Assembly: GCF_013415325.1 (NCBI RefSeq)
Contig: NZ_JACBYE010000041.1
Location: 1 to 39,069 of the forward strand
Source: Sanguibacter inulinus
GTDB lineage: Bacteria > Actinomycetota > Actinomycetes > Actinomycetales > Cellulomonadaceae
Reading direction: 5' to 3'
Length of the DNA stretch: 39,069 nucleotides
Position numbers and translations under genes: made by a program. Within the stretch, counting starts at the first letter, position 1, and each line of letters starts with the position of its first letter. The notes beneath the pieces are model-generated. The model ran no database searches, had not been told where the DNA came from, and worked only from the letters and a program-made list of their open reading frames with translations. Shown here piece after piece: positions 2,635 to 33,657 of the stretch.

Positions 2635-2641
2635 GCTGGAC

Positions 2642-2740
2642 GTGCTGGGTCAGTCCGCCGAGGCCCACGCTCCTGGGGGCGTGCTGCGTCGGTCTGCCGG
2701 GGCACAGGCTCCCGGGGGACTCGCTGGGTCAGTCGCCTGT
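2642..2740. repeat. 39-bp tandem repeat at the 3' end of the TetR gene
   Basis: Units 2642-2680 and 2681-2719 match at 31 of 39 positions. A partial third copy overlaps the end of the TetR gene. The 12-mer GCTGGGTCAGTC occurs at 2644-2655 and again at 2723-2734, where it contains the TetR stop codon (TCA on the plus strand, 2729-2731). The array lies between two convergent genes. Confidence 0.7.
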
Positions 2741-3385
2741 GCCCCCAGGCCTCTGCGGCTCCACGAGGGGCGGCTCCACGAGGTACAGGGCGAGCGCGTC
2801 CTGCATGACGGCGGCCATGTCGACCTGGTCCTCGGAGCCGCGCTCGAGCAACCACTGGACCTGGAGCCCGTCCATGAGAGCCGTGAGCTGGCGGGCGCCC
2901 GAGGCTGGGTCGACCGAGGGGCGCAGCGCCCCGGCGTCGCGGAGCGCCTCGAGCTCCCGCGTGAGCAGCGCGATCGTCGTGGTGTACCTGTCGCGGAAGT
3001 ACCTGTGCGCGGGGTGGTCCGCGGCCGTGGCCTCGGCGGCGAGCGTGGTGAACAGCTCGACGATGCCGGGCCTCTCGGCGTTGCGGCGCACGAGCCTGAC
3101 GACCGCGTCGAGCAGCGCCGTCCCCGACGCGAGGTCTGCGGCCAGCGCTGAGTCGTCGATCTCGTCCCGGTGCTCGAGGACCGCGGCCAGCAGCACCTCC
3201 TTGGTCGGGAAGTGGTGGATCAGGCCGGGGTGCGAGATCCCGACGCGTGACGCGATCTCGCGCAGCGACGCAGACCTGTACCCGACCTCGCCGAACAAGA
3301 CCATCGCGGCCTCGACGATCTGCACGCGCGTGGCGCGCCCCTTGGCGTACCCCCGCTCGCGGCGCGGCTGCGCAGGTTCTGTCAC
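2729..3385 (-). CDS. TetR/AcrR-family transcriptional regulator
   Basis: This is a 218-residue one-component repressor. The N-terminal helix-turn-helix (about residues 15-65) includes ASLREIASRVGISHPGLIHHF, followed by the helical ligand-binding domain. The GTG at 3383-3385 is chosen because it gives a normal TetR length and removes a long Arg/Gly-rich extension; the Shine-Dalgarno is weak. A perfect palindrome between its own -35 and -10 points to autorepression. It converges on the GH3 gene, so control of sugar use is plausible but not shown. Its stop codon lies inside a tandem repeat. Confidence 0.88.
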   Translation of the reverse strand: MTEPAQPRRERGYAKGRATRVQIVEAAMVLFGEVGYRSASLREIASRVGISHPGLIHHFPTKEVLLAAVLEHRDEIDDSALAADLASGTALLDAVVRLVRRNAERPGIVELFTTLAAEATAADHPAHRYFRDRYTTTIALLTRELEALRDAGALRPSVDPASGARQLTALMDGLQVQWLLERGSEDQVDMAAVMQDALALYLVEPPLVEPQRPGGTGD

Positions 3386-3551: not shown

Positions 3552-4688
3552 ATGAGCCACGTTCCTCCTCCCCCACCCGGCGCGGGCGCTCCTGGTCCCG
3601 GCGACGCCAAGACGCAGAAGCTCGGCGCGCAGCCGGGGTGGGGCGACCAGCAGGGCACGCAGGGCCCCTCGGCGTCCTATGGACAGCCGGGTCACGCAGG
3701 TCAGCCGAGCCAGCCCGGTCAGCAGCAGGGCCAGGCCGGTCAGCCCGGTCAGCCGGGCCAGGCCCAGCAGGGCGAATCCTGGCAGCAGGGCCAGCCGTCA
3801 CAGCCCGCGCCGCAGTCTCAGCCCGGTCAGCCCGGTCAGCCGTGGCCGCAGCCCACCCAGCAGTGGGGCCAGCCCGGCGGTCCGCAGCAGCATGGCAGCC
3901 CGCAGCAGCCCGCTGGTCCGCAGCATGGCCAGCAGCCGGCACAGCAGCCGTGGCAGCAGCAGCCGGGCCAGCAGCCCCAGCAGCCCGGCCAGCAGTGGGG
4001 TCAGCCTGGTCAGCAGCCGGGCCAGCAGCAGCCCGCACAGCAGTGGGGTCAGCCTGGCGCACCCGCCCAGCAAGGTCCCGGGCAGCACAGCCCCGGGCAG
4101 CAAGGCCCGTGGGGTCAGCAGCCCGCGCAGCAGCAGTGGGGCCCGGGCCAGCAGGGCGGCTACCCCGGCCAGCCCGGTCAGCAGAACCCGCAGTGGGGAC
4201 AGCAGCCCCCGAAGAAGTCGTCACGCGGCCTCATCATCGGGATCGTCGTCGCGGTGGTCGTGATCGGCCTCGCCGTCGCGGCGTTCTTCCTGTTCTTCTC
4301 CGACTCGACGCCCGAGGCCCTCGAGCCCGACGTGTCGTCGAGCACGAGCGCGTCGGTCAGCCAGCTCGTCGTCGGCAACTGCCTCGAAGACGTCTCGGGC
4401 AGCGGGTCCGTCGGCGAGGTCGACGTGGTGCCCTGCTCCGACGACCACGGCGCTCAGGTGGTCGGGAGCACGACCTTCACCGACGGTGACTTCCCCGGCC
4501 AGGACACGCTCGTCACCCAGACGACGGCGATCTGCTCCCCCGACCTCGTGACGAGCGGCGACGTCCCGGCCGACGACCTCAGCCTCGTCGTGTGGACCCC
4601 GAGCGAAGACTCGTGGGCTGACGACGACCGCACAGGTCTGTGCATCGCCGTCGTCGAGGGCGGGCTCTCCGGCAGCCTCCTCGACTGA
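3552..4688 (+). CDS. Septum-formation-family membrane protein with Q/P/G-rich tail
   Basis: This 378-residue single-pass protein begins with about 215 residues of Pro/Gln/Gly-rich low-complexity sequence built on QPGQ and QQWGQPG units. A transmembrane helix follows (GLIIGIVVAVVVIGLAVAAF, about 225-244), then an outer domain of about 130 residues. That domain has the G-NC...VPCSDDHGAQVV pattern of the septum-formation (DUF4190-like) family and four Cys that could form disulfides. ATG 3552 follows AGGCGG by 6 nt; the earlier in-frame start at 3504 has no ribosome site. The sibling lipoprotein beyond clpB carries the same tail on its C-terminus. The precise function is unknown; a cell-envelope or division role is inferred from family and topology. 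A strong terminator follows. Confidence 0.75.
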   Translation: MSHVPPPPPGAGAPGPGDAKTQKLGAQPGWGDQQGTQGPSASYGQPGHAGQPSQPGQQQGQAGQPGQPGQAQQGESWQQGQPSQPAPQSQPGQPGQPWPQPTQQWGQPGGPQQHGSPQQPAGPQHGQQPAQQPWQQQPGQQPQQPGQQWGQPGQQPGQQQPAQQWGQPGAPAQQGPGQHSPGQQGPWGQQPAQQQWGPGQQGGYPGQPGQQNPQWGQQPPKKSSRGLIIGIVVAVVVIGLAVAAFFLFFSDSTPEALEPDVSSSTSASVSQLVVGNCLEDVSGSGSVGEVDVVPCSDDHGAQVVGSTTFTDGDFPGQDTLVTQTTAICSPDLVTSGDVPADDLSLVVWTPSEDSWADDDRTGLCIAVVEGGLSGSLLD

Positions 4689-4737: not shown

Positions 4738-4773
4738 ACAGCAGCCGCACCGGATGACCGGTGCGGCTGCTGT
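4738..4773. terminator. Strong hairpin terminator
   Basis: ACAGCAGCCGCACCGG (4738-4753) pairs perfectly with 4758-4773 (16-bp stem, ATGA loop). It lies 49 nt after the stop codon of the septum-formation-family gene and may also serve convergent clpB. Confidence 0.85.
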
Positions 4774-4788
4774 CGTCTGGCTGGCCCC

Positions 4789-4886
4789 GCTCCTCGCAGA
4801 GCGCTCTCGCAGGAACGCTCTGAGCGAGGCACTCCCGACGGAGCGCTCACCGTGCGGCGCTCCTGGCGGAGCGCTCCTAGCGGAGC
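4789..4886. repeat. 14-bp tandem repeat starting on the clpB stop codon
   Basis: Seven consecutive 14-nt units run from 4789 to 4886. Clear members are GCTCCTGGCGGAGC (4859-4872) and GCTCCTAGCGGAGC (4873-4886). The last unit carries the final clpB codons and its TAG stop (plus-strand CTA, 4877-4879). Units diverge with distance from the gene. Confidence 0.8.
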
Positions 4887-7489
4887 ACCTCGACCACCAG
4901 GTTCCCCGCGCCGCCCTCGGGCGACTCGGGCCTGTCGACGAGGATCCTGTCGCCGTCGGCGATCTCACCCGCGAGGAGCGTCCGTGCGAGCCTGTCGCCG
5001 ATCTCCCGCTGCACGAGGCGGCGCAGCGGCCGCGCTCCGTAGGCGGGGTCGAAGCCCTCGATCGCGAGCCACTCCCGCGCAGCGTCCGTGACGACCAGCG
5101 TGATCCGCCGGTCGACCAGGCGCGCCGCCAGGGCCTCGACCTGGATGTCCACGATCTGCCCGAGCTCGTCGAGGTCGAGCGGGTCGAAGAGCACCACGTC
5201 GTCGAGCCTGTTGAGGAACTCCGGCTTGAAGGCGCTCTGCACGGCGGCCATGACCGACGCCCGCTTGGCCCCGTCGTCGAGCAGCGGGTCGACGAGGTAC
5301 TGCGACCCGAGGTTCGACGTCATCACGAGGATCACGTTGCGGAAGTCCACCGTCCGGCCCTGACCGTCGGTGAGCCGTCCGTCGTCGAGCACCTGGAGCA
5401 GGATGTCGAAAACCTCGGGGTGGGCCTTCTCGACCTCGTCGAGGAGCACGACCGAGTACGGACGACGCCGCACGGCCTCGGTCAGCTGACCGCCCTCTTC
5501 GTAGCCGACGTAGCCCGGGGGTGCCCCGACGAGGCGCGCGACGGTGTGCTTCTCCGAGTACTCGGACATGTCGATGCGGACCATCGCCCGGGCGTCGTCG
5601 AAGAGGAAGTCGGCGAGAGCCTTGGCGAGCTCGGTCTTGCCGACACCCGTCGGGCCGAGGAACATGAACGACCCCGTCGGGCGGTCGGGGTCGGAGACCC
5701 CTGCCCGCGCGCGGCGCACAGCGTCGGAGACCGTCGCGACAGCCGCCTTCTGGCCGATGAGCCGCTGCCCGAGGACCTCCTCCATGGACAAGAGCTTCTG
5801 GCTCTCGCCCTGGAGCATGCGTCCGGCGGGGATGCCCGTCCAGGCGGAGACCACCTCGGCGATCTCGTCGGCGTCGACCTTGTCCCCGACGAGCGGGGCA
5901 GGGCGGTCGACGGTCTCCTCGGCGTGCTCGGCCTTCTCGGCCTCGGCGAGCTCGCGCTCGAGCTGGGGGATGTCGCCGTAGCGCAGCCGCGACGCGGTCT
6001 CGAGGTCGGCCTCGCGCTCGGCCTTCTCGGCCTGGGCGTCGAGCTGGGCGAGCCTCTCACGGAGCTCACCGACCCTGTTGAAGCCGCCCTTCTCAGCAGC
6101 CCAGCGGGCCGTGAGCGAGGCCAGCTCTTCCTTGCGGTCGGCGAGGGTCGCGCGCAGCACCGACAGACGCTGGCGGGAGGCCTCGTCGTCGGACTTCTCC
6201 AGGGCGAGCTCTTCCATCTCGAGGCGTGTCACGGCGCGCTGGAGCACGTCGATCTCGACCGGGGACGAGTCCATCTCCATACGCAGGCGCGCGGCGGCCT
6301 CGTCGACGAGGTCGATCGCCTTGTCGGGGAGCTGGCGACCGGTGATGTACCTGTCGGACAGCGCCGCGGCAGCCACGAGCGCGGCGTCGGAGATGGTCAC
6401 GCGGTGGTGAGCCTCGTAGCGGGACTTGAGCCCGCGCAGGATCGCCACGGTGTCCTCGACCGTCGGCTCGCCGACGAACACCTGCTGGAAGCGGCGCTCG
6501 AGGGCGGGGTCCTTCTCGACGTGCTCGCGGTACTCGTCGAGCGTGGTCGCACCGACGAGGCGCAGCTCGCCGCGGGCGAGCATGGGCTTGAGCATGTTGC
6601 CCGCGTCCATCGCGCCCTCGGAGCCACCCCCGGCACCGACGACGGTGTGCAGCTCGTCGATGAAGGTGACGACCTCGCCGTCGGAGCCCTTGATCTCCTC
6701 GAGGACAGCCTTGAGGCGCTCTTCGAACTCACCGCGGTACTTGGCACCGGCGACCATCGCCGCGAGGTCGAGCGAGATGAGCCGCTTGCCCTTGAGCGAG
6801 TCGGGGACGTCGCCCGCGACGATGCGCTGGGCGAGGCCTTCGACGACGGCGGTCTTGCCGACGCCGGGCTCACCGATGAGCACAGGGTTGTTCTTGGTGC
6901 GGCGCGAGAGCACCTGGACGACGCGACGGATCTCGGAGTCGCGGCCGATGACAGGGTCGAGCCGGCCGTCGCGTGCGGCCTCGGTGAGGTCGACGCCGTA
7001 CTTCTCGAGCGAGTCGTAGGTGCCCTCGGGGTTGGGGCTGGTGACCCGGCGTCCACCGCGGACCACGGGGATCGCTGCGGCGAGCGCCTCACGCGTGGCT
7101 CCGGCGCGCTGGAGGATGTCGGCGGCCGGTGAGGGCGCGGCGGCGAGACCGAGCAGCAGGTGCTCGGTCGAGATGTACTCGTCCTGCAGCTCGGCGGCCT
7201 CGGTGCGGGCGCGCTGGAGCACGGCGGACATGGCACCCGAGAGCGTGGGCTCGGCGACCGAGGACCCCGAGAGGGTCGGCAGGGCGACGAGGGCCCGGCG
7301 GGCGGCGGCGCCGACGGCCTGGGCGTCCACGCCCGCCTGGGCGAGGAGGCCGGGGGTCGTGCCGGTCTGCTGGGCGAGCAGCGCGTCGAGCAGGTGGACA
7401 GGCTCGACCTGCGGGTTGCTGGCAGCCCCCGCGGACTGCACGGCGTTGCCGAGAGCGTCGCGGGAGAGGGTCGTGAGGTTGAGGTCCAT
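4877..7489 (-). CDS. clpB: ClpB, ATP-dependent disaggregase
   Basis: This is a full-length 870-residue Hsp100 chaperone that threads aggregated proteins through a hexameric ring together with DnaK. It shows the Clp N-domain (about 1-145), NBD1 with Walker [14 protein letters not shown] (about 205) and arginine-rich sensor region, the M-domain coiled coil (about 400-520), and NBD2 with Walker [15 protein letters not shown] (about 605). The D2 pore loop lies in [12 protein letters not shown] 7487-7489 is preceded by GGAGG at good spacing. A HAIR element upstream indicates HspR control. The gene stands alone, away from dnaK/grpE/dnaJ/hspR. The 3' end is embedded in a 14-bp tandem repeat. Confidence 0.98.
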
Positions 7490-7766: not shown

Positions 7767-9002
7767 ATGAAACGTCTCACAGCCCTCGCCGCAGGCGCGG
7801 TACTCGCTGTCACACTGACCGGCTGCATGCGCGTGCAGACCGACATCGTCCTCCACGACGACGACACCATGGACGTCCAGATGGTCATGGCCGTCGAAGA
7901 CGCTGCCATCGAAGAGCTCGGCATGACGTCCGACGACTTCCTCGAGCAGATGGAGACCGAGACCGGCGACGACTTCCTCGCGCCGGGCACCCAGAGCGAG
8001 TCGTACAAGCAGGACGGCTACACCGGCTACCTCTACTCGGTCGAAGACGCAAAGCTCGAGGACTTCTCGGACGAGGCGCTGTCGTTCACGCGCGACGGCG
8101 ACGAGTACGTCGTCAGCGGGACGCTCGAGAGCTCCGACACCGGACTGACGGACGACGACCTCGCCAACATGGAGAGCCTGGGGATGGGCGACCCCGACAT
8201 CACCTTCTCGGTCGAGTTCCCGGGCGAGGTCACCGAGTCCAACGGAGAGATCGACGGCAACACGGTCACCTGGACCTACGTCCTCGGTGAGCCCCTCGAG
8301 TTCGACGCCCGCGGCTCGGCCGGCGGGTCCGGCTCGGTCGTCGACCCGTCCGACGACGCCACGGACGACGCGACGGACCCCAGCACCGAGTCCACGCCTG
8401 ACAGCTCGGACTCCGCGAGCGACGAGCCCGAGGCCGACAGCTCCAGCTCCGACGACGAGGGTGTCAACTGGCTCCTCTGGGTCGGCATCGGCGTGGGCGT
8501 CCTCGCCCTCGCAGGACTCGCCACGTGGCTGATCCTTCGCAACCGCAAGGGTGGCGGCCAGGGCGGCCCCGGCGGACCCGGTGCGTACGCCGCAGCAGGC
8601 GCTCCCGCCTGGGGCCAGCAGCAGGGTCAGCCCGGCCAGCAGCAGTGGGGCCAGCAGCCGCAGCAGCCCGGCCAGCAGGGTCAGCAGTGGGGCCAGCCCC
8701 AGCAGCCCGGTCAGCCCGGTCAGCAGCAGTGGGGACAGCCCGGTCAGGGCCAGCAGCAGCCTGGCCAGCCCGGCCAGCAGTGGGGCCAGCCGGACCAGCA
8801 GCAGGGTCAGCAGGGTCAGCCCGGACAGCAGCAGTGGGGTCAGCCTGGACAGGGTCAGCCCCAGCAGCCCGGTCAGCAGCAGTGGGGACAGCAGACGGGC
8901 CAGCCGGGCCAGCCTGGCCAGGACCAGACCGGCCAGCAGTGGGGCCAGCCTGGGAAGCCTGGCGAGGAGCCTCCGGCACCCGGGCAGCAGCCCTGGCGCT
9001 GA
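7767..9002 (+). CDS. LppM-like lipoprotein with C-terminal Q/P/G/W repeats
   Basis: This 411-residue lipoprotein has a signal peptide with lipobox LTGC (lipidated Cys about residue 19), then an LppM-like outer domain of about 180 residues (starts MRVQTDIVLHDDDTMDVQMV). An acidic Ser/Asp/Glu stalk (about 190-230), one transmembrane helix (WLLWVGIGVGVLALAGLATW) and a basic stop-transfer (RNRKGG) come next. The cytoplasmic tail has about 140 residues of QPGQ/QQWGQ repeats. Start ATG 7767 follows AAGGAG by 10 nt; the longer in-frame ORF from 7542 lacks a signal peptide. LppM of mycobacteria modulates host phagocytosis, but the role here is unknown. The same tail type occurs at the N-terminus of the protein at 3552. 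The stop codon falls inside the first unit of a 17-bp tandem array. Confidence 0.75.
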   Translation: MKRLTALAAGAVLAVTLTGCMRVQTDIVLHDDDTMDVQMVMAVEDAAIEELGMTSDDFLEQMETETGDDFLAPGTQSESYKQDGYTGYLYSVEDAKLEDFSDEALSFTRDGDEYVVSGTLESSDTGLTDDDLANMESLGMGDPDITFSVEFPGEVTESNGEIDGNTVTWTYVLGEPLEFDARGSAGGSGSVVDPSDDATDDATDPSTESTPDSSDSASDEPEADSSSSDDEGVNWLLWVGIGVGVLALAGLATWLILRNRKGGGQGGPGGPGAYAAAGAPAWGQQQGQPGQQQWGQQPQQPGQQGQQWGQPQQPGQPGQQQWGQPGQGQQQPGQPGQQWGQPDQQQGQQGQPGQQQWGQPGQGQPQQPGQQQWGQQTGQPGQPGQDQTGQQWGQPGKPGEEPPAPGQQPWR

Positions 9003-9090
9003 CAGGCACGGCTGGCTGACGGCCACGGTCGGCTGACAGATGCGGTCGCCTGACAGCGACGGCCTGTCGACAGCTACAGTCGGCTGACAG
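8989..9090. repeat. 17-bp tandem repeat on the lipoprotein gene stop codon
   Basis: Five full 17-nt units run from 9006 to 9090, typified by CCACGGTCGGCTGACAG (9023-9039) and CTACAGTCGGCTGACAG (9074-9090). A sixth, diverged unit at 8989-9005 contains the TGA stop (9000-9002) in the same CTGACAG core, so TGA recurs downstream with a period that is not a multiple of three. Confidence 0.85.
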
Positions 9091-9113
9091 CCGCACACAG
9101 ACGCAGCACCCCC

Positions 9114-19182: not shown

Positions 19183-19189
19183 CCCCTCT

Positions 19190-19237
19190 GTGGAGTGGTG
19201 CTTCCGTGGAGTGGTGCCTCCGTGGTGCGGAAGCTCC
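19190..19237. repeat. 16-bp tandem repeat directly after the TM2 gene stop
   Basis: GTGGAGTGGTGCTTCC (19190-19205) and GTGGAGTGGTGCCTCC (19206-19221) differ at one base. A diverged third unit (19222-19237) abuts the TM2 gene stop codon (TCA, 19238-19240). Confidence 0.7.
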
Positions 19238-19885
19238 TCAGCCGCGCAGCGGTCGACCGCTCGCGTCGCGCGAGTAGCTGCCGGTCTTCGAGACGAGATA
19301 GAGGATCCCCTCGATCAGTCCCCAGAGGCTCGTGACCGCCGCGAAGATGCCGAGCGAGAGCACGGTGACCAGCAGCATGATCATCCCGATGCCCGTGTGC
19401 CCCGTGTAGAAGCGGTGGATGCCGAAGGCCCCGAGGAAGATCCCGAGGAGCCCCGCGACCACCCGCGACTTCGCGTACGGGTCCTCCTGGACCCACTGCC
19501 CGGGGTACGGCTGCGCGGGGTGAGGCTGCGCAGCGTAGGGCTGAGCAGGGTAGGGCTGGCCAGCGGGCGGGTAGCCGCCGGGCGCCTGCGCGTAGCCCGG
19601 CTGGTTCTGCGGGTAGCCCGGCTGCTGCGGGGCCTGCGGGGGCGTGTACCCAGACCAGCTTCCGCCCTGCTGGCCCTGCGCCCCCGTCTGCCCGGGGTAC
19701 GGCGAGGCGTACGGCGTCGACGGTTCTGCCGGGGTCGACGGCTTGTCGAGGCTGTAGCCGTACTGCGCCGTCGGGGGCTCCTGCGACGACGGCCCGGAGG
19801 CCCCGGCAGGCCGCATCCACTCGGGTCGCTCGTGCTCGGGCACGGGCTCTGACGGGACCGACCCGTAGCCTGAAGAGCTGCTCAC
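19238..19885 (-). CDS. TM2-domain membrane protein with P/G/Y/Q-rich N-terminus
   Basis: This 215-residue protein starts with about 130 residues of disordered Pro/Gly/Tyr/Gln-rich sequence (repeated [18 protein letters not shown] type). A TM2 domain (about 140-205) follows: two helices joined by [16 protein letters not shown]2 proteins are small inner-membrane proteins of unclear role. GTG 19883-19885 is the start; GGGAG is 13 nt upstream, so initiation signals are weak. The gene diverges from tRNA-Gly. It is the third protein in the window with a long aromatic-spaced low-complexity cytoplasmic tail. Confidence 0.85.
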
Positions 19886-19941: not shown

Positions 19942-20015
19942 GCGGATGTAGTTCAATGGTAGAACTTCAGCTTCCCAAGCTGATAGCGCGGGTTCGATTC
20001 CCGTCATCCGCTCCA
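19942..20015 (+). tRNA. tRNA-Gly (anticodon CCC)
   Basis: A full cloverleaf is visible: acceptor GCGGATG pairs with CATCCGC, D-arm with AATGGTA, anticodon stem TCAGC/GCTGA around loop TTCCCAA (anticodon CCC), and T-arm GCGGGTTCGATTCCCGT. CCA is encoded (20013-20015). It reads GGG codons. Confidence 0.95.
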
Positions 20016-22875: not shown

Positions 22876-22977
22876 TGGTCGCGGCTCCCACCACGCTCGC
22901 GGCTCCTAGCGCGCTCGCGGCTCCCAGCGCGCTCGTGGCTCCCGCCGTCCTAGCGGCTCCCAGCACGCTCGCGGGCC
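22876..22977. repeat. 18-bp tandem repeat spanning the acyltransferase stop codon
   Basis: Five 18-nt units run from 22876 to 22965, for example CGCTCGCGGCTCCTAGCG (22894-22911) and CGCTCGCGGCTCCCAGCG (22912-22929), with a further partial unit inside the coding end. On the minus strand each encodes E-R-A-G-S-R-like peptides; in one unit GAG is TAG, which is the stop codon (22952-22950). Confidence 0.85.
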
Positions 22978-24245
22978 TCTCGGGGCCGGCTGCCGCTGCC
23001 TGCCCTGCGCCGGACCCTGTCCGTCCCCGCGAGCACACCCCACAGGCTCAGCCCCAGGACGGCGTACCAGAGCGGCCGGGAGGCCCACCAGGCACCGCTG
23101 CCGGGGTCGGGGAAGGGCACGTGCAGGAGCAGCAGGACACCGGTGACGACCACCATGACGGGCAGGTGCCACAAGAACGCCCGCATCGAGGCGCCGGAGG
23201 CGACGTCGAGCACCCGTGCCACCCGCGGCCGCTCGAGCAGCGGCGCGACGACGGGGCGCAGCAGCAGGGCGACGGGGATCTGCACGAGGGTGAGGAGCAG
23301 CGGGACCGTCCCGGGCGGGCTGAAGTTCGAGCGCTCCCCCGACAGCCCGATCATCGACTCGGGCCACATCGGCGAGGCGGTCACGGCGACGAGTGCCACG
23401 AAGGCCAGCAGGGCCCACCACGCGACCGTGGACCTGCGCATCCGCTGGAGCGACCCGTCGGCGTAGGCGAAGCCGATCTGCTGGGCCGTCCCCCACACGA
23501 AGAGGTAGTTGAAGGTACCGACGGCCGAGCTGTCGGTCGCGATCCGCACGAGCTCGACGACGACCACGGCGACCGAGAGCGCGACGACGACCCACCACCT
23601 GTAGCGCGCGTGCAGGCGGAGCATCACCGGGGCGACAGCGGCGAGGGCCGCGAAGACGGCGACGAACCACAGCGGCATGACCACCACGACGGCGACGGTC
23701 CGGGTGAGACCGGCCGGGGCACCGAGTGCGAGTGCGATCCCCACGGCGACGGCGACGAGCAGCACGAAGGGGATCAGCGGCAGGAACAGACCGCTGAGCC
23801 GACGCCGCAGGAAGACGCCCCAGAGACGACCGAAGGACGGGGTGCGTCCTGTGCGCGCCGTCTCGCGCTCGACGACGCGCGACCAGCTGGTCGCGTTCGA
23901 GAAGCCACCGACGAAGAAGAACAGCGGGATGAGCACCAGGACCCAGGTGAGGGGCCACATCCAGCGCTCAATGTTGAGGATGTTGTCGACGGCGAGCCCG
24001 CCGTCGTCGTCCCGGCCGATCGCGGCCATCGTCCAGTGCCCGACGACGACCGCCCCCAGGGCGAGGGTGCGCAGCAGGTCGGCGAAGCGGTCGCGGGGCG
24101 CGGGAGAGGTCGGGGCGGAGGAGGTCTGCGCGGAAGAGGTCAGCGCAGGAGAGCTCGCCGCCGGAGACGTCGGCGCGGGCTCGACCGGTGCTGGCGCAGC
24201 CGGGACAGCATCTCGTCCGTGGGGCGCTTCAGGCGTCGTGCTCAG
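22950..24245 (-). CDS. Acyltransferase 3 family membrane protein (CTG start)
   Basis: This 431-residue multi-pass O-acyltransferase-like protein has about 10 membrane helices. After a Pro/Ser/Thr/Ala-rich N-terminus (about 55 residues) comes the family opening RDRFADLLRTLALGAVVVGH with the conserved His. The frame stays open upstream of the first ATG (24029), which would cut this motif, and contains no ATG, GTG or TTG. CTG 24243-24245 fits: GGAGG lies 8 nt upstream and CTGA overlaps the pirin stop. Likely substrate is a cell-surface sugar or lipid; unknown. The C-terminus is basic and runs into an 18-bp tandem repeat that also carries the stop. Confidence 0.75.
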   Translation of the reverse strand: MSTTPEAPHGRDAVPAAPAPVEPAPTSPAASSPALTSSAQTSSAPTSPAPRDRFADLLRTLALGAVVVGHWTMAAIGRDDDGGLAVDNILNIERWMWPLTWVLVLIPLFFFVGGFSNATSWSRVVERETARTGRTPSFGRLWGVFLRRRLSGLFLPLIPFVLLVAVAVGIALALGAPAGLTRTVAVVVVMPLWFVAVFAALAAVAPVMLRLHARYRWWVVVALSVAVVVVELVRIATDSSAVGTFNYLFVWGTAQQIGFAYADGSLQRMRRSTVAWWALLAFVALVAVTASPMWPESMIGLSGERSNFSPPGTVPLLLTLVQIPVALLLRPVVAPLLERPRVARVLDVASGASMRAFLWHLPVMVVVTGVLLLLHVPFPDPGSGAWWASRPLWYAVLGLSLWGVLAGTDRVRRRAGSGSRPREARERAGSR

Positions 24246-25351
24246 CTCGGGTTCCTCCGGGGTGCGAGGCGCACGTTGGGCAGCACGGGCGCGGGGAGCG
24301 GTGCGCCGTCGTAGCCGACGACGGTCCCGAACCTAGCGTCCTGGCCGGTGCCCGTCGATGGTGACTCCTGCCCGCCGGACCCGGCTCGGGCCCCGGGCGC
24401 CCCGAGAGTGTCGAGCGTCTCGAGGGTGTCGCGGTCGGCGCGACCGATCTGGCGCTGCCAGTCTGCCCGGGCGGCGACGACCTCGTCGTGGCTGCGCCCG
24501 ACGAAGTTCCACCACATGACGATCTCCTCGGTCGACGGCCGGCCACCGACGAGCACGAGCCTGGCGCGGCCCGTGGTCGTCAGCACGACCTCGTGCCGGC
24601 CGGGGGCGAGATAGCCGAGGTTGTCGGCGGCGAGGGGGCTCCCGTCGACGGTGACCTCGTCGCCCGAGTCCACGAGGAAGGCGTGCTCGTGCTCGGGGTC
24701 GACGGCGAGCGTGAAGCGGGTCCCCGGGTCGAGGTCGATCTGCGCACCGACGATCTCGGAGTACGTCGTCGCCGGGGACTCCATGCGCTCGACGACGCCG
24801 AGGCCCGGCTGCGCGGGGAGCGCGCCGAGGAACACCTGCAGCCGGACCCCGTCGACCTGCACGACGGGCAGGTCGTCGTGGTGCTCGAAGGCCGGGGCGA
24901 CCCCCGCGCTCGCGTGCGGGAGCGCTGTCCACAGCTGGACCCCGTGGAGGGTCGTGGTGGTCCGGTCGTCGGGCGAGTGCTCGGAGTGCGAGATCCCGCG
25001 GCCTGCGGTCATGAGGTTGAGCTCGCCAGGCCGCACGAGGCAGGCAGAGCCGACGGAGTCGTGGTGCTCGATCTCGCCGCCGAACAGCCACGTCACGGTC
25101 TGCAGACCCGTGTGCGGGTGCGGGGGCACCTGCATCCCCGGGCCTGTGGTCACGTCGTCAGGGCCGAAGTGGTCGAGGAAGCACCAGGCGCCCACGAGGC
25201 TCCGCGACCGCTGCGGGAGGGTCCGGCGGACGGTCATCGCCCGGGCTCCGCCGAGCGGCACCTCGCGCGGCTCGAGGACCTCGAGGGCCGTCGTCGGGCC
25301 AGGGAGGGCGACGCAGGTCTGCTCGTCGGGGGCGCTGTCGAGGTTGCTCAC
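24242..25351 (-). CDS. Pirin family protein
   Basis: This 369-residue bicupin has the metal-binding pattern PPHPHTGLQTVTWLF and LMTAGRGISHSEHS of pirins in its first half, and the pirin C-terminal domain in the second. Some pirins oxidise quercetin, others act as cofactors; the role here is unknown. GTG 25349-25351 is preferred over the farther start, because the extension is Cys/Gly-rich junk-like sequence. TACCCT lies 6 nt upstream, suggesting a leaderless mRNA. The stop overlaps the CTG start of the acyltransferase, so the two are probably co-translated. Confidence 0.88.
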   Translation of the reverse strand: MSNLDSAPDEQTCVALPGPTTALEVLEPREVPLGGARAMTVRRTLPQRSRSLVGAWCFLDHFGPDDVTTGPGMQVPPHPHTGLQTVTWLFGGEIEHHDSVGSACLVRPGELNLMTAGRGISHSEHSPDDRTTTTLHGVQLWTALPHASAGVAPAFEHHDDLPVVQVDGVRLQVFLGALPAQPGLGVVERMESPATTYSEIVGAQIDLDPGTRFTLAVDPEHEHAFLVDSGDEVTVDGSPLAADNLGYLAPGRHEVVLTTTGRARLVLVGGRPSTEEIVMWWNFVGRSHDEVVAARADWQRQIGRADRDTLETLDTLGAPGARAGSGGQESPSTGTGQDARFGTVVGYDGAPLPAPVLPNVRLAPRRNPS

Positions 25352-25549: not shown

Positions 25550-26446
25550 CTAGACCCCGACAGCAAATCCCGCGTCGTCGAGCACAGTGCCGGCGACGGC
25601 CCGCTCGAAGACCGCAGCGACCTTCTCGACCACTGGCGCGATGCGGCTCCGGGCCACCACGTGCAGCGAGGACGGATGGTCCGAGGCCTCGTCCTCTGGG
25701 CTCCCGGACCTCCAGCGGACCGCGTAGGCGAAGGGCCCCGAGTCGCGCCACGGCAGCTGGAGGAGGGCCGGCGGCAGGGCGTCGGTGCGGCTGAGGCTGA
25801 CCTCGACGGTGCCGTCGTAGGGCGTCTGCGTCGTGATCGTCCAGGCGACAGGCCCACCGTCCGTGGGCGCGGACTGCGCGGAGACGACGGCCTGGACGAG
25901 GACCGTGCGGACGAGCGCGAGGGCGTGCTGGGGCGGCAACGAGTGCGCGCTGTAGAGCGTGCGGTCGACCGACTGCCCGGCGTCGGGCACGACGGCCTGC
26001 GTGCGGCCGCTCTCGAGGACGGCGCCGTGGGCGTGACGCGCGGCGGCAGCCACCCAGGCGAGGACCCGGGCGGCCTCGCGCTCCTGCTCCTCGGGCGTCC
26101 CCTCACCCGTCGGCCGCACGACGTATCCCTCCACGTGCCGAGGTGGGAGCACGTAGGTGACGGTGTCTTCGGCGGTGAGCGGGTGGGGTCCTGTGAGCAC
26201 GTGGCCCGGGGCGAGCCGGAGCGTCCCGGGAGTGGCCTCGGGCTGCGCAGCCATGCCGCGGAACCGAGCGCCGCGCAGCGGCACGACCCGCGAGGTCGCG
26301 GTGTCGAGGCTGACGGGCTCGACCAGCCAGTCGGCGTCCGGGAACCACGCCCGGACGAGCGTCATGACGTCGACGTGGGCGGGCAGGGCGAGGAGGTGGT
26401 CTCCCGTGCGGCTGCCAGGGCCGAGCCTGTCGAGGAGTGCTGTCAT
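25550..26446 (-). CDS. Hypothetical protein, paralogue of 17330-18460
   Basis: This 298-residue soluble protein has no recognised catalytic motif. It matches the larger hypothetical beside dcd in order and content: EREAARVLAWVAAAARHAHGAV, VVPDAGQSVDRTLYSAHSLPP, FAYAVRWRSGSPEDE and IAPVVEKVAAVFERAVAGTVLDD each have counterparts. It lacks part of that protein's N-terminus and middle. TAGTGT lies 6 nt before ATG 26444-26446, so it may be leaderless. It is divergent from the TetR gene at 26648. Function unknown. Confidence 0.7.
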   Translation of the reverse strand: MTALLDRLGPGSRTGDHLLALPAHVDVMTLVRAWFPDADWLVEPVSLDTATSRVVPLRGARFRGMAAQPEATPGTLRLAPGHVLTGPHPLTAEDTVTYVLPPRHVEGYVVRPTGEGTPEEQEREAARVLAWVAAAARHAHGAVLESGRTQAVVPDAGQSVDRTLYSAHSLPPQHALALVRTVLVQAVVSAQSAPTDGGPVAWTITTQTPYDGTVEVSLSRTDALPPALLQLPWRDSGPFAYAVRWRSGSPEDEASDHPSSLHVVARSRIAPVVEKVAAVFERAVAGTVLDDAGFAVGV

Positions 26447-26622
26447 GCCCGGACACTACGAGGCGCAGAATGCCGGGAGGTTTCCGGCGTGCAACGGGTC
26501 GCGAACGTCTGCCGCAGCTCGGCCGCAGCTCGGACGCAGCTCGGAGGCACGGCTGACGCACGGACCGTCGTGCCACGTCAGGGGCTGCGCGCAGCCGCGG
26601 AATCCCGCCGATGTGCATGTTC

Positions 26623-26647: not shown

Positions 26648-27250
26648 ATGCCGAAGATCATCGGTGGGTCACTCCACGAGCACCGCGAACAGACACGCCA
26701 ACGACTCTTCACGGCACTGTCCACCCTCATGTCGGAGCGTGGTTTCGACGCGATCTCCTTCGCCGACATCGCCGCAGCAGCCGGTGTCGGACGGACCGCC
26801 GTCTACAACCACTTCTCGGACAAAGAAGCCCTGCTCATGGGTTTCATCACCTTCGAGACCGAGCGCTACGTCGAGACGCTGCGCAGGTCCCTCGAGGACG
26901 TCGAGACCCCCGTGCTGCGCCTGCGGACCTACGTCCAGGCGCACGCCCGGCTCAAGCGTGTGTTCCACGTGGCACCAGGACCAGACCTGCGCACTGTGCT
27001 GTCCCGCGGCACCCAGCAGCGCCTGCGCGAGCACGCCGTCGTGGTCGAGGAGATCCTGCGGGAGATCCTCGTCGCCGGCATCGCCCGCGGTGACTTCCCC
27101 GAGCAGGACATCGCGACGACGGTCGCGCTCATCAACGCGTGCCTGTCCGGCCGGCAGATCCCCGAGGAGCAGCCGGCCCGCGACCGCGCGATCCTGGCGA
27201 CGGAGTCCTTCGTGCTGCGCGCCGTCGGCGTCGAGCCCGCGCACGCCTGA
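26648..27250 (+). CDS. TetR-family transcriptional regulator
   Basis: This is a 200-residue regulator. The HTH (about 15-60) contains ISFADIAAAAGVGRTAVYNHFSDKEALL, a canonical TetR recognition helix; the remainder is an all-alpha ligand/dimer domain of unknown specificity. ATG 26648 has no good Shine-Dalgarno and may be leaderless. It is divergent from the hypothetical gene at 26446, which it might control. Confidence 0.9.
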   Translation: MPKIIGGSLHEHREQTRQRLFTALSTLMSERGFDAISFADIAAAAGVGRTAVYNHFSDKEALLMGFITFETERYVETLRRSLEDVETPVLRLRTYVQAHARLKRVFHVAPGPDLRTVLSRGTQQRLREHAVVVEEILREILVAGIARGDFPEQDIATTVALINACLSGRQIPEEQPARDRAILATESFVLRAVGVEPAHA

Positions 27251-30208: not shown

Positions 30209-30976
30209 ATGCAGACATCGGGGCGGACGCGGTCACGGCGCCGCTCGCGCCGTGTCGAGTTCGTCGCCGACCCGGTCCTCGGACTGACCGTCCGCAAGCC
30301 CGCGACCCGCGCCACCTACGGGGTGCACGCGCTGCTCACCCACCTCACCAACGTCGGCTTCGCGGGTGCACCTCGGTCCTTCGGCGTCGACGAGCAAGAA
30401 CGTCACGTCCTCGAGTACATCCCGGGGTCGACGGCCGACGAGGACGCGCCCTTCGACCACGCCGAGCTGACCCGCCTCGGCGAGCTCGTGCGGGACCTCC
30501 ACGACGCCGCAAAGTCCTTCGAGCCGCCGCCGGGCGTGCAGTGGCACGTGACCATCCCGTCGACCAGCACAGAGCTCGTGTGCCACAACGACATCTCGCC
30601 GTGGAACCTCGTGCGCGACGGCGAGCGCTGGGTGCTGCTCGACTGGGACGGCGCCGGTCCGGGCTCTCGCGTCGACGAGCTCGCCTCGGTCGGCCAGGCC
30701 TTCTTGCCCCTCCAGCCCGACGGCGACCCGCACCGGGACGGCGAGCGCCTGCGCTCCCTCGTCGACGGATACGGACTGACCGCCGGCCAGCGCCCGAGCC
30801 TCGTCCAGGCGGCAGCCGACCACACGCGCGGCGTGTACGACCTCCTGGTCGACGGCAGCCGCACGGGGGCGGAGCCGTGGGCCTCCCTCTACGCGGCCGG
30901 GCACGCCAAGCACTGGAAGTCGGCGGCAGACTACGTGCTCCGTCACCGGGGCGAGCTGCGGGCCGCGCTGCGCTGA
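30209..30976 (+). CDS. APH-family phosphotransferase
   Basis: This 255-residue protein-kinase-like phosphotransferase has the catalytic loop VCHNDISPWNLV (Asp base) and the metal-binding LLDWDGAG. The N-lobe is short: the adenine-lobe Lys may be in LTVRKPATRATYGVH. Such enzymes phosphorylate small molecules, sometimes aminoglycosides or macrolides, but the substrate is unknown here. ATG 30209 lies just after CTGGAGCC. It is divergent from the MerR/TipAL gene, so a drug-response link is conceivable but unproven. Confidence 0.82.
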   Translation: MQTSGRTRSRRRSRRVEFVADPVLGLTVRKPATRATYGVHALLTHLTNVGFAGAPRSFGVDEQERHVLEYIPGSTADEDAPFDHAELTRLGELVRDLHDAAKSFEPPPGVQWHVTIPSTSTELVCHNDISPWNLVRDGERWVLLDWDGAGPGSRVDELASVGQAFLPLQPDGDPHRDGERLRSLVDGYGLTAGQRPSLVQAAADHTRGVYDLLVDGSRTGAEPWASLYAAGHAKHWKSAADYVLRHRGELRAALR

Positions 30977-31689: not shown

Positions 31690-31766
31690 TCCTCTCAGGC
31701 TGGCGCGAGCCTCACGCGCGCTGGCGCCGCTACCTGCCCTGGCCCGGCTACCCCGCTACCCCCGCA
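31690..31766. repeat. Short tandem repeat on the thioredoxin/NHL stop codon
   Basis: On the minus strand GGGGGTAGC and GGGGTAGC lie in tandem, the first carrying the TAG stop (31758-31756). Diverged units such as GCAGGTAGC and GGCGCCAGC follow with a period of about 9 nt. It is the weakest of the six stop-codon arrays. Confidence 0.5.
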
Positions 31767-33657
31767 GCGGCAGCGTGAGCACCTCGGGCGTCCCGGCGAC
31801 CACCCGCACGGGCACCCCCCAGTCCTGCTGGGCCAGGTGGCACGCCGGGTACTCGACGGCCGGGTCGGCGTCACAGCTGGCCGCCTGCGCGGTGACGTGC
31901 AGGACTCCCTCGGCGATCTCGGGGTTGATGCGCAGCGTCCGGACGAGCGGGAGGTCGCGGCCGGCCCCGTCGAGCAGCAGCTCGGGCGGGGTCGACGAGA
32001 CCGTGAGCTGGGTGGACGGGCCGAAGCGGTCGTCGTACTTCTGACCTGTCGCGGGCGTGAAGATCACGTCGAGGCGGATCTCGCCCGGCGGCACCTCGGT
32101 CACGGGGCGCTGCGTGCGGTGGGCACCCGAGTCGAGCACCTGACCGGCGAGCGACGCCGGGAGCGCGACGCGCGTGAGCCTGTGCGCGGTCGACTCGACG
32201 ACGAGCACGTGCACCTCGTCGCCGTCCACCTGCACGAGGGCGTCGCTCGGCTCCGCGAGGTCGCCGACGAGCGTCGTCACCTCGTCGGTCGCCGGGTCGT
32301 AGCGCCGCAGCGCGCCGTTGTAGGTGTCGGTGACGAGCACGGACCCGTCGGGCAGCGCGGCGACGCCGAGCGGGTGCTGGAGCAGCGCCTGCGCGGCGGG
32401 ACCGTCCCGGTGCCCGAAGTCGAAGAGCCCCTGCCCGACGAGGGAGGTGATGGTCGCAGACCTGTCGTCGGCGACGTCGACACGGCGCAGCGCGGAGGTC
32501 TCCGCGTCGGCGAGCCACACCGAGCCGTCGGGGGCGACCGACAGACCCGAGGGCTGCGCGAACCACGCCTGCGCGAGCGGACCGTCGAGCAGCCCCTCGT
32601 TCTGGGTCCCGGCGACCTGCTCGACGATCCCGGCCACGGGGTCGAAGGTCCACAGCGAGTGGTTGCCGGCCATCGCGACGAGGAAGGCCCCGAGCCGCTC
32701 CGACCAGACGACGTCCCACGGCGAGGTGAGCCTGTGACGCAGAGCAGGGGTCGCGTCGGGCGCAGCCGACTCGGGGACGACGTTCTCGGCGCCACCGACC
32801 ATGAGCTGCTCACCGGTCCCGGCGACCGTCGTCACGTGCCCGTCGGCGAGCCGCACACCGCGGAGCGCGTGGTTGACGGTGTCGGCGACGAGGACGTCGT
32901 ACCCGACCTGCTCGCGGAGTCCCTCGGGCACGAGGCAGAGCCCGTTCGGCTCGCTGAAGGCCGCGGCGTCCGGACCGCCGTCGGCCAGGCCGCGCTCACC
33001 CGAGCCGATCCGCCGGACGAGGGTCTCGCCGTCCGCGGCGAGCTCGGCGAGGCTGTGGTGCCCGGCGTCGGCGACGAGCAGGTTACCGGATCCGAGCGCG
33101 ATGACCGCGGCGGGGAAGCGCAGCGTCCCCGGGGTCGGCTCGGCCGGCACGTAGGGGCCGGAGCCGCGGTGCAGCGTGCCCTTGGCCGTGTGCTCCTCGA
33201 CGAGCTCGCGCACCAAGATCTCGAGGGTCGAGGCGTGACCCTCCCCCGCCATGTGCGCGACGACGTACCCCTCGGGGTCGATCACCACGAGGGTCGGCCA
33301 GGCGCGCGCCGTGTACGCGGACCACGTGACGAGGTCCGGGTCGTCGAGCACGGGGTGGCGCACCTCGTACCTGTCGACGGCGGCCGCGAGCGCGACGGGG
33401 TCGGCCTCGTGGACGAACTTCGGGGAGTGCACCCCGACGATCACGACCTCGTCGCGGTGCGCCTCCTCGAGCTCGCGGAGCTCGTCGAGGACGTGCAGGC
33501 AGTTGACGCAGCAGAAGGTCCAGAAGTCGAGGACGACGATCTTGCCGCGCAGGTCCGCGAGGGTGACGTCGGCGCCGCCGGTGTTGAGCCAGCCGCGGCC
33601 CACGAGCTCGCTGGCACGGACGCGGGGCAGGCGGGGGCTGGGGGTCGTTGCGCTCAC
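31756..33657 (-). CDS. Thioredoxin-like / NHL-repeat protein
   Basis: This 633-residue protein starts with a TlpA-like thioredoxin domain (about 15-170) whose active site is FWTFCCVNCLHVLDELREL (CxxC). An NHL beta-propeller follows (about 185-500; repeated GSGNLLVADAGHHSLAEL, LPDGSVLVTDTYNGALRRY). A C-terminal beta-rich domain (about 520-633) resembles that of NHLRC2-type proteins. No signal peptide is visible, so it is probably cytoplasmic. GTG 33655-33657 is the first sensible start and lies 14 nt after the WYL stop; the long upstream extension overlaps the WYL gene and is rejected. A redox-sensing scaffold role is inferred. Confidence 0.85.
   Translation of the reverse strand: MSATTPSPRLPRVRASELVGRGWLNTGGADVTLADLRGKIVVLDFWTFCCVNCLHVLDELRELEEAHRDEVVIVGVHSPKFVHEADPVALAAAVDRYEVRHPVLDDPDLVTWSAYTARAWPTLVVIDPEGYVVAHMAGEGHASTLEILVRELVEEHTAKGTLHRGSGPYVPAEPTPGTLRFPAAVIALGSGNLLVADAGHHSLAELAADGETLVRRIGSGERGLADGGPDAAAFSEPNGLCLVPEGLREQVGYDVLVADTVNHALRGVRLADGHVTTVAGTGEQLMVGGAENVVPESAAPDATPALRHRLTSPWDVVWSERLGAFLVAMAGNHSLWTFDPVAGIVEQVAGTQNEGLLDGPLAQAWFAQPSGLSVAPDGSVWLADAETSALRRVDVADDRSATITSLVGQGLFDFGHRDGPAAQALLQHPLGVAALPDGSVLVTDTYNGALRRYDPATDEVTTLVGDLAEPSDALVQVDGDEVHVLVVESTAHRLTRVALPASLAGQVLDSGAHRTQRPVTEVPPGEIRLDVIFTPATGQKYDDRFGPSTQLTVSSTPPELLLDGAGRDLPLVRTLRINPEIAEGVLHVTAQAASCDADPAVEYPACHLAQQDWGVPVRVVAGTPEVLTLPLRG

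Follow-up and report, generated by a model that had tools for sequence, protein, structure and literature searches.

Short, gene-specific tandem arrays in the 3′ flanks of genes and their turnover between sister species

Tandem arrays in the window

The window, a stretch of 39,069 nucleotides, is contig 45 of genome G000 (4.26 Mb in 109 contigs; GC 71%). The clpB gene in this window adjoins a convergent gap, and from its last codons onward it is followed by an array of seven 14-bp units that is composed of small inverted repeats and shows strong folding (z −4.36). As delimited by TRF, the array covers the clpB stop codon TAG (4877–4879); a strong inverted repeat that is a candidate bidirectional terminator lies separately from it. 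An earlier note on this DNA had described arrays at the 3′ ends of six genes, namely clpB and the TetR, LppM-like, TM2, acyltransferase and thioredoxin/NHL genes. These and further features are listed in Table 1. The identities of the genes were obtained with Pfam (TetR_N, LppM, TM2, Acyl_transf_3, and NHL with AhpC-TSA/thioredoxin), and the name clpB was taken from the earlier note, relatives of this gene matching at up to 93%. Gene ends are those of our own gene caller, which keeps the best set of frames by codon log-odds and permits small overlaps, and not those of a curated annotation. Arrays were detected by our own ungapped self-alignment (periods 5 to 60, score at least 18), and TRF was run too.

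The arrays were evaluated against chance by comparing the best self-alignment score of each gap with those of 300 dinucleotide shuffles. It was found that 0 of 300 shuffles reached the observed score in each of the TetR, clpB, LppM, TM2 and acyltransferase gaps. The thioredoxin/NHL repeat was at chance level, with 33 of 300 shuffles reaching the best score of its gap, and that score comes from a repeat other than the one at the stop. Therefore, five of the six arrays stand and the sixth does not. When compared by eye, the units of the five confirmed arrays are mutually unrelated, which agrees with the earlier statement that the units are gene-specific and share no common repeat. The TetR array occupies a convergent gap between a GH3 gene and the TetR gene, and the acyltransferase array covers the last 25 nt of its gene. 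Two arrays absent from the earlier note were also found. One starts 38 nt 3′ of the stop of a pirin gene, and the other, which lies between two gene starts, is a counter-example to placement at 3′ ends.

Apart from these arrays, tandem codon repeats (CAGCCCGGC-like, Gln/Pro/Gly-rich) occur at 3684–4132 and 8553–8950 within two coding sequences, a gene at 3552–4688 with a weak Septum_form match and the LppM-domain gene. A tRNA gene identified with Rfam (19942–20012, + strand) lies between the TM2 gene and an exonuclease/TerD gene.

Table 1. Arrays and associated features of the window, with positions in the window
Feature	Position	Strand	Repeat	Associated genes or remarks
TetR array	2638..2734	-	39 bp x 2.1-2.4	GH3 gene 260-2590 +; TetR gene 2729-3385 -
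Strong inverted repeat	4738..4773	.		candidate bidirectional terminator
clpB 3′ array	4788..4886	-	TRF 14 bp x 7.1 (also 28 bp), degenerate	
clpB coding sequence	4877..7489	-		870 aa
LppM-like array	8998..9092	+	17 bp x 5.6	LppM-domain gene 7767-9002 +
TM2 array	19187..19237 (19185-19237 overall)	-	16 bp x 2.6-3.2	TM2 gene 19238-19816 -
Acyltransferase array	22879..22974	-	18 bp x 5.3	acyltransferase gene 22950-24029 -
Pirin array	24097..24203	-	15 bp x 7	pirin gene 24242-25351 -
Divergent-gap array	26493..26563	.	11 bp x 6.5, degenerate	genes 25550-26446 - and 26648-27250 +
Thioredoxin/NHL repeat	31743..31762	-	8 bp x 2.5, at stop	gene 31756-33657 -

Distribution of arrays relative to gene ends

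We scanned 600 kb of G000 together with the window and, from the same genus, 560 kb of the sister species G003, 200 kb of G004, 120 kb of G005, 80 kb of G002, and 32 kb of G001. More distant relatives, scanned over 200 kb each, were G015 (same family) and G025 and G034 (same order). Gaps shorter than 60 bp or longer than 600 bp were excluded from the counts by gap type. In G000, arrays were present in 20/51 convergent, 23/194 co-directional, and 4/77 divergent gaps (convergent versus divergent, Fisher p = 2.8e-6), whereas shuffling gave 0.2, 0.2, and 0 gaps with arrays, respectively. Using TRF (score at least 40), the values for G000 were 21/51 convergent versus 11/77 divergent gaps (p = 0.0008). 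The sister species had arrays in 10/40 convergent, 20/165 co-directional, and 4/53 divergent gaps (p = 0.037), so that the convergent bias holds in both genomes. The other members of the genus gave small samples, none of them significant, with convergent versus divergent counts of 3/10 and 1/17 (G005), 1/5 and 0/10 (G002), and 1/9 and 0/24 (G004); the G001 sample contained no convergent gap and an array in 1/4 divergent gaps. The data thus suggest a bias in the genus. Outside the genus no convergent bias was seen in the small samples available: the difference in G025 was without significance (3/12 versus 4/28, or 3/12 versus 7/28 by TRF), and the bias was absent from both G015 and G034 (0/10 convergent versus 2/23 divergent gaps in each).

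The coverage of bases by arrays was calculated around genes for gaps of at least 100 bp. Over the first 200 nt behind the stops of G000 genes it increased from 5.6% to 17%, and it amounted to 9–17% of bases at 20 to 200 nt behind stops as opposed to 0.4–4.8% before starts; the value for the last 200 coding nt was 0.8–2.3%. The contrast was weaker in G003 (4.9–9.2% behind stops, 1.5–3.9% before starts, and 0.3–5.4% in the last 200 coding nt) and slight in G015 (2.4–7.4% behind stops versus 2.2–5.8% before starts).

A comparison of 30 clpB loci, from 39 genomes searched, gave arrays with a score of at least 14 in 11/30 of the 3′ flanks and 1/30 of the 5′ flanks (0.6 and 0.1 in shuffles), and at a score of at least 18 the numbers were 6 and 0. 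The clpB 3′ array has a period of 14 bp in G000 and 8 bp in G003; in G002 the last three codons and the stop are present in duplicate (12 bp; score 16), G004 has a weak array (score 16), and none was found in G005 or G001. The enrichment in G000 and G003 relative to divergent gaps, and in the 3′ relative to the 5′ flanks of clpB, bears out the earlier proposal of a recurrent 3′-flank feature, and in G000 and G003 arrays were not equally common in other intergenic DNA.

Stop codons, folding, and turnover

The earlier note placed the beginning of each array at or on the stop codon. The LppM and acyltransferase arrays indeed overlap the stop with both detectors, whereas the result for the other three depends on the detector: the TetR and clpB arrays overlap the stop by TRF but have their starts 10 nt (TetR) and 0 nt (clpB) behind it with our own detector, and the TM2 array starts 0 nt (own detector) or 12 nt (TRF) behind it. 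The claim was therefore overstated, as was the related one that the stop triplet is repeated within most units. This is clearly so only for LppM, in which TGA is present in 5/6 copies (the last copy being partial) and the period is no multiple of three; TAG is present in 2/5 full copies of the acyltransferase array, at differing positions of the unit, and in one copy of the clpB array.

The positions of array edges were evaluated for 98 arrays of G000, G001, G002, G003, and G005, with G004 and the arrays of the GAGGTCGYAC family (see below) excluded. In convergent gaps, 20/36 arrays had their nearest edge at −40 to +15 of a stop, compared to 21.9 expected under random placement (p = 0.82), and 9 arrays compared to 6.2 expected had one in the narrow range of −10 to +5 (p = 0.15). 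Arrays in co-directional gaps were nearer to the stop than expected (24/49 versus 14.1, p = 0.001; 9 versus 4.0 in the narrow range, p = 0.016). Exclusion from promoters would produce this pull, given the promoter at the distal end of co-directional gaps, and we read it as such an exclusion combined with the coding boundary. In G025 the pull was strong (9/11 versus 3.4), with one dispersed element (described below) carried by 6 of these 11 arrays. At clpB, 8/11 arrays start at −17 to +4 of the stop (scanned from −20), which favours the earlier note. Anchoring on the stop as such was not borne out: edges did not pile up there in convergent gaps, although those in co-directional gaps and at clpB were drawn to it somewhat, and the stop-codon reading of the arrays is mostly unsupported.

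Stop triplets within the arrays were counted on the sense and antisense strands. Arrays that start behind the stop contained 42 sense versus 43 antisense triplets in G000 and G003, and 64 versus 61 in six genomes, whereas arrays that overlap the gene's own stop contained 85 versus 19 (G000 and G003). The sense excess is therefore limited to the overlapping arrays, whose very construction would produce it, and the recurring stops look like a by-product of the gene's own stop lying in the duplicated piece and not like a selected part of the unit. Given equal numbers of sense and antisense triplets where the array starts behind the stop, backup stop codons were rejected. Array-free 3′ flanks had 365 sense versus 281 antisense stops in G000 and 177 versus 183 in G003. 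Periods showed no clear preference for multiples of three (remainders 0, 1, and 2 in 27, 19, and 28 of 74 arrays).

Folding was compared between 74 arrays of G000 and G003 and 366 array-free 3′ flanks, and it was found that the arrays fold less strongly (median z −0.07 versus −0.76, p = 0.0014). Values below −2 were obtained for 10/74 arrays, clpB, LppM (−2.74), and TM2 (−4.29) being among these exceptions, as opposed to 32% of array-free flanks. The C-over-G skew of the 74 arrays did not differ from that of other 3′ flanks (p = 0.85). As a class, the arrays thus lack the folding of intrinsic terminators, and by C-over-G skew, the one property used for Rho-dependent terminators (rut), they do not stand out either; a terminator or rut reading was rejected for the class. 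Hairpins outside the array were present in 14/30 array-bearing versus 38/61 other convergent gaps and in 10/43 versus 125/316 co-directional gaps, where masking of the array leaves shorter pieces to be searched. Backup termination and mRNA protection, both of which had been suggested earlier, get no support from the sequence when the arrays are taken together.

The presence of arrays in the sister species G000 and G003 was compared at 54 3′ flanks for which both neighbouring genes are orthologous (at least 50% identity) and at least one gap is of 60 bp. Both species had an array at 2 flanks, G000 alone at 10, G003 alone at 4, and neither at 38. The array-bearing flank was the longer one in 13/14 one-sided cases (p = 0.0018), with a median of +95.5 bp for the ten G000 cases, whereas the median length difference of array-free pairs was −1.5 bp. 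A looser set of 73 flanks, in which a convergent gap is entered once from each side and which includes 3/26 array-bearing pairs below 50% identity, gave 4, 17, 5, and 47, respectively. At the loci with an array in each of the two species, namely clpB, TM2, acyltransferase, and L045|9 with L072|7, the two periods are not the same. Such turnover between sister species speaks against a conserved role at each gene.

The protein ends agree within 1 residue in 20/26 array-bearing pairs, and three of the six pairs with differing ends are doubtful orthologues (below 50% identity). It thus seems that the stop was already in place when most of the arrays arose behind it. The earlier proposal that units grow from the last codons of their own gene holds in some cases, such as TM2 of G003, where 25-bp copies consist of the last codons of TM2 plus the stop, and the clpB duplication of G002; judging from these repeats, the last codons of a gene may sometimes seed its array. 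A different situation was found for the acyltransferase, the last 11 residues of which do not align with G003, the final ones being encoded in the array, so that this reading frame probably runs into its array. The similarity of copies was evaluated in arrays of four species with at least four copies and a period of at least 7, including GAGGTCGYAC arrays. Neighbouring copies were the most alike in 34/41 arrays, with an identity of 0.781 for adjacent versus 0.694 for non-adjacent copies (p = 1.5e-6).

Origin of the arrays, related systems, and dispersed elements

We think it likely that the arrays represent degenerate minisatellites, young and specific to the lineage, which arose by stepwise tandem duplication in tolerant DNA behind genes. 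This reading draws on the 3′ bias observed in G000 and G003, the gene-specific units, the likeness of neighbouring copies, the lengthening of gaps, the turnover, and the protein ends. Local tandem duplications, made by what we infer to be slippage or strand misalignment, would accumulate stepwise behind genes with fast birth and loss, and the resulting arrays would persist because the DNA there would be without a promoter or a ribosome-binding site, and such tolerance would explain the bias. Duplications across the stop would be harmless, since the first copy of the stop would still terminate the protein; thus, some units would hold the last codons and the stop, array edges would meet the coding boundary, and this boundary would be permeable for a few codons. 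The acyltransferase would represent another route, with a frame that terminates inside the array. The arrays would have no selected function, and none is needed to explain them, the tests for termination and backup stops being negative for the class. On this explanation, arrays would mark weakly constrained 3′ DNA and feed new C-terminal codons. Observations that run against it are the nearness of co-directional edges to stops, the starts of the clpB arrays, the small samples of G015, G034, and (by TRF) G025 that have no convergent bias, and the weaker coverage contrast in G003 and the slight one in G015; the threefold higher frequency of arrays in convergent than in co-directional gaps (20/51 versus 23/194) may tell against tolerance alone.

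That excess is the main hint of a higher birth rate of arrays at the ends of transcription. A mutational hotspot, with more tandem duplications in termination zones, chiefly where polymerases (and replication forks) converge, would make the 3′ bias a reflection of where duplications are born, beyond tolerance alone. We regard this as rather unlikely, even though arrays in convergent gaps of G000 are about threefold as frequent as in co-directional gaps, which also own a 3′ end, and about 7.5-fold as frequent as in divergent gaps. Some excess would follow from tolerance alone, given that both flanks of a convergent gap are 3′ flanks and that it lacks a promoter, and none of the ten convergent gaps of either G015 or G034 has an array. 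In its fuller form, which we advance as a tentative idea only, termination zones, chiefly convergent ones, would be duplication hotspots in this lineage, array positions would record where polymerases stop or collide, and stop-spanning duplications would extend the hotspot harmlessly into the last codons. For genomes that lack RNA data, arrays would then record in the sequence where transcription ends or collides, and comparison alone would suffice to test whether termination and duplication are linked. It is improbable that the arrays are functional 3′-end elements that terminate transcription, protect mRNA ends, or supply backup stops. The inverted repeats of the clpB array, the folding of the clpB, LppM, and TM2 arrays beyond that of shuffles, and the recurrence of the LppM stop out of frame fit such a function, and the sense excess in array-free flanks of G000 indicates that backup stops as such may matter there; against it stand the weaker folding of the class, its C skew, which does not differ from that of other flanks, the lack of a sense excess in arrays that exclude the gene's own stop, and the unconserved presence of arrays between sister species. 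That genes ran into pre-existing arrays and terminated at the first stop met there is very improbable: the C-terminal residues of the acyltransferase are what it would predict, but the shared protein ends of most array-bearing pairs, and the doubtful orthology of half of the six differing pairs, argue against it.

REP/BIME sequences are a dispersed palindromic family that forms clusters between genes, whereas the window arrays have no excess folding as a class, and no sequence common to many loci was found in them. The MIRU elements of mycobacteria are short repeats at gene junctions that may be in tandem. According to PMC12548453, MIRU seem to be mobile and to insert at start codons, with coupling; in contrast, the units of the present arrays are unrelated and peak in convergent gaps, where coupling is impossible, and a conserved unit between co-directional coupled genes was not found. 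The TAACTGA direct repeats of Beggiatoaceae are intergenic tandem heptamers with stop triplets and differ in being one fixed heptamer located mostly just upstream of start codons (PMC4679880). The arrays resemble the intergenic minisatellites/VNTR of bacteria, which likewise have short units, degenerate copies, and gain and loss among relatives. The arrays described here had copies above chance (5/6), stepwise growth, and gain, loss, and length change between species; they differ in being concentrated behind genes, and their length change was compared between species only. Minisatellites or satellites are counted in PMC2884548 (E. coli, S. aureus) and PMC6749651; the term "stop codon" is absent from both texts. 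A tree-of-life survey, PMC12699852, which also tests repeat density relative to gene starts and ends, reports in its excerpted portions a weak enrichment of short tandem repeats upstream and downstream of bacterial and archaeal genes, and these portions deal with short units and make no mention of longer gene-specific ones. A search of open-licence papers brought up no account of arrays that are gene-specific and clustered 3′ of genes.

A single mobile repeat family scattered behind genes, resembling REP/BIME, is a highly improbable source of the window arrays, and this reading is close to refuted. Such families do exist nearby, GAGGTCGYAC in G000 and another in G025, but the window units are unrelated by eye, the only exact GAGGTCGYAC of the window is a single one at 30835, outside the arrays, and excluding GAGGTCGYAC arrays reduces the G000 convergent count only from 20/51 to 18/51.

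The GAGGTCGYAC element of G000 was seen outside the window at L145:1501-1664, L153:1501-1665, and L170:1501-1645, among others. Its left half consists of [GAGGTCGYAC N10]n followed by GAGGTCGYAC-RGACACGCC, and, after about 27 nt, the right half consists of GGCGTGTCY-GTRCGACCTC followed by [N10 GTRCGACCTC]n. The 10-nt spacers vary, which is hard to obtain by plain slippage and suggests an array that is bound or paired. No Rfam match was found for the element in L145 or L170. Exact GAGGTCGYAC pairs spaced by 20 bp numbered 36 in G000 and 0 in the reversed control, and sites of the core pattern numbered 25 in G000, 13 in G003, and 0 in G001, G002, G004, and G005; among the 39 genomes searched, nine others had 1–7 sites, and the control gave 1 each in G004 and G030. 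The 17 loci examined were convergent in 10 cases, co-directional in 7, and divergent in 0. The G025 element (L177 and L111:2082-2192, among others) is GTGATCATGCAATCCCGCCA, with 334 exact copies (168+166) and 0 in the reversed control, often as 2–4 tandem copies that are commonly about 37 bp apart. Of 18 placed copies of GTGATCATGCAATCCCGCCA, 1 was in a coding sequence, and 12 were on the gene strand, 7–123 nt behind a stop.
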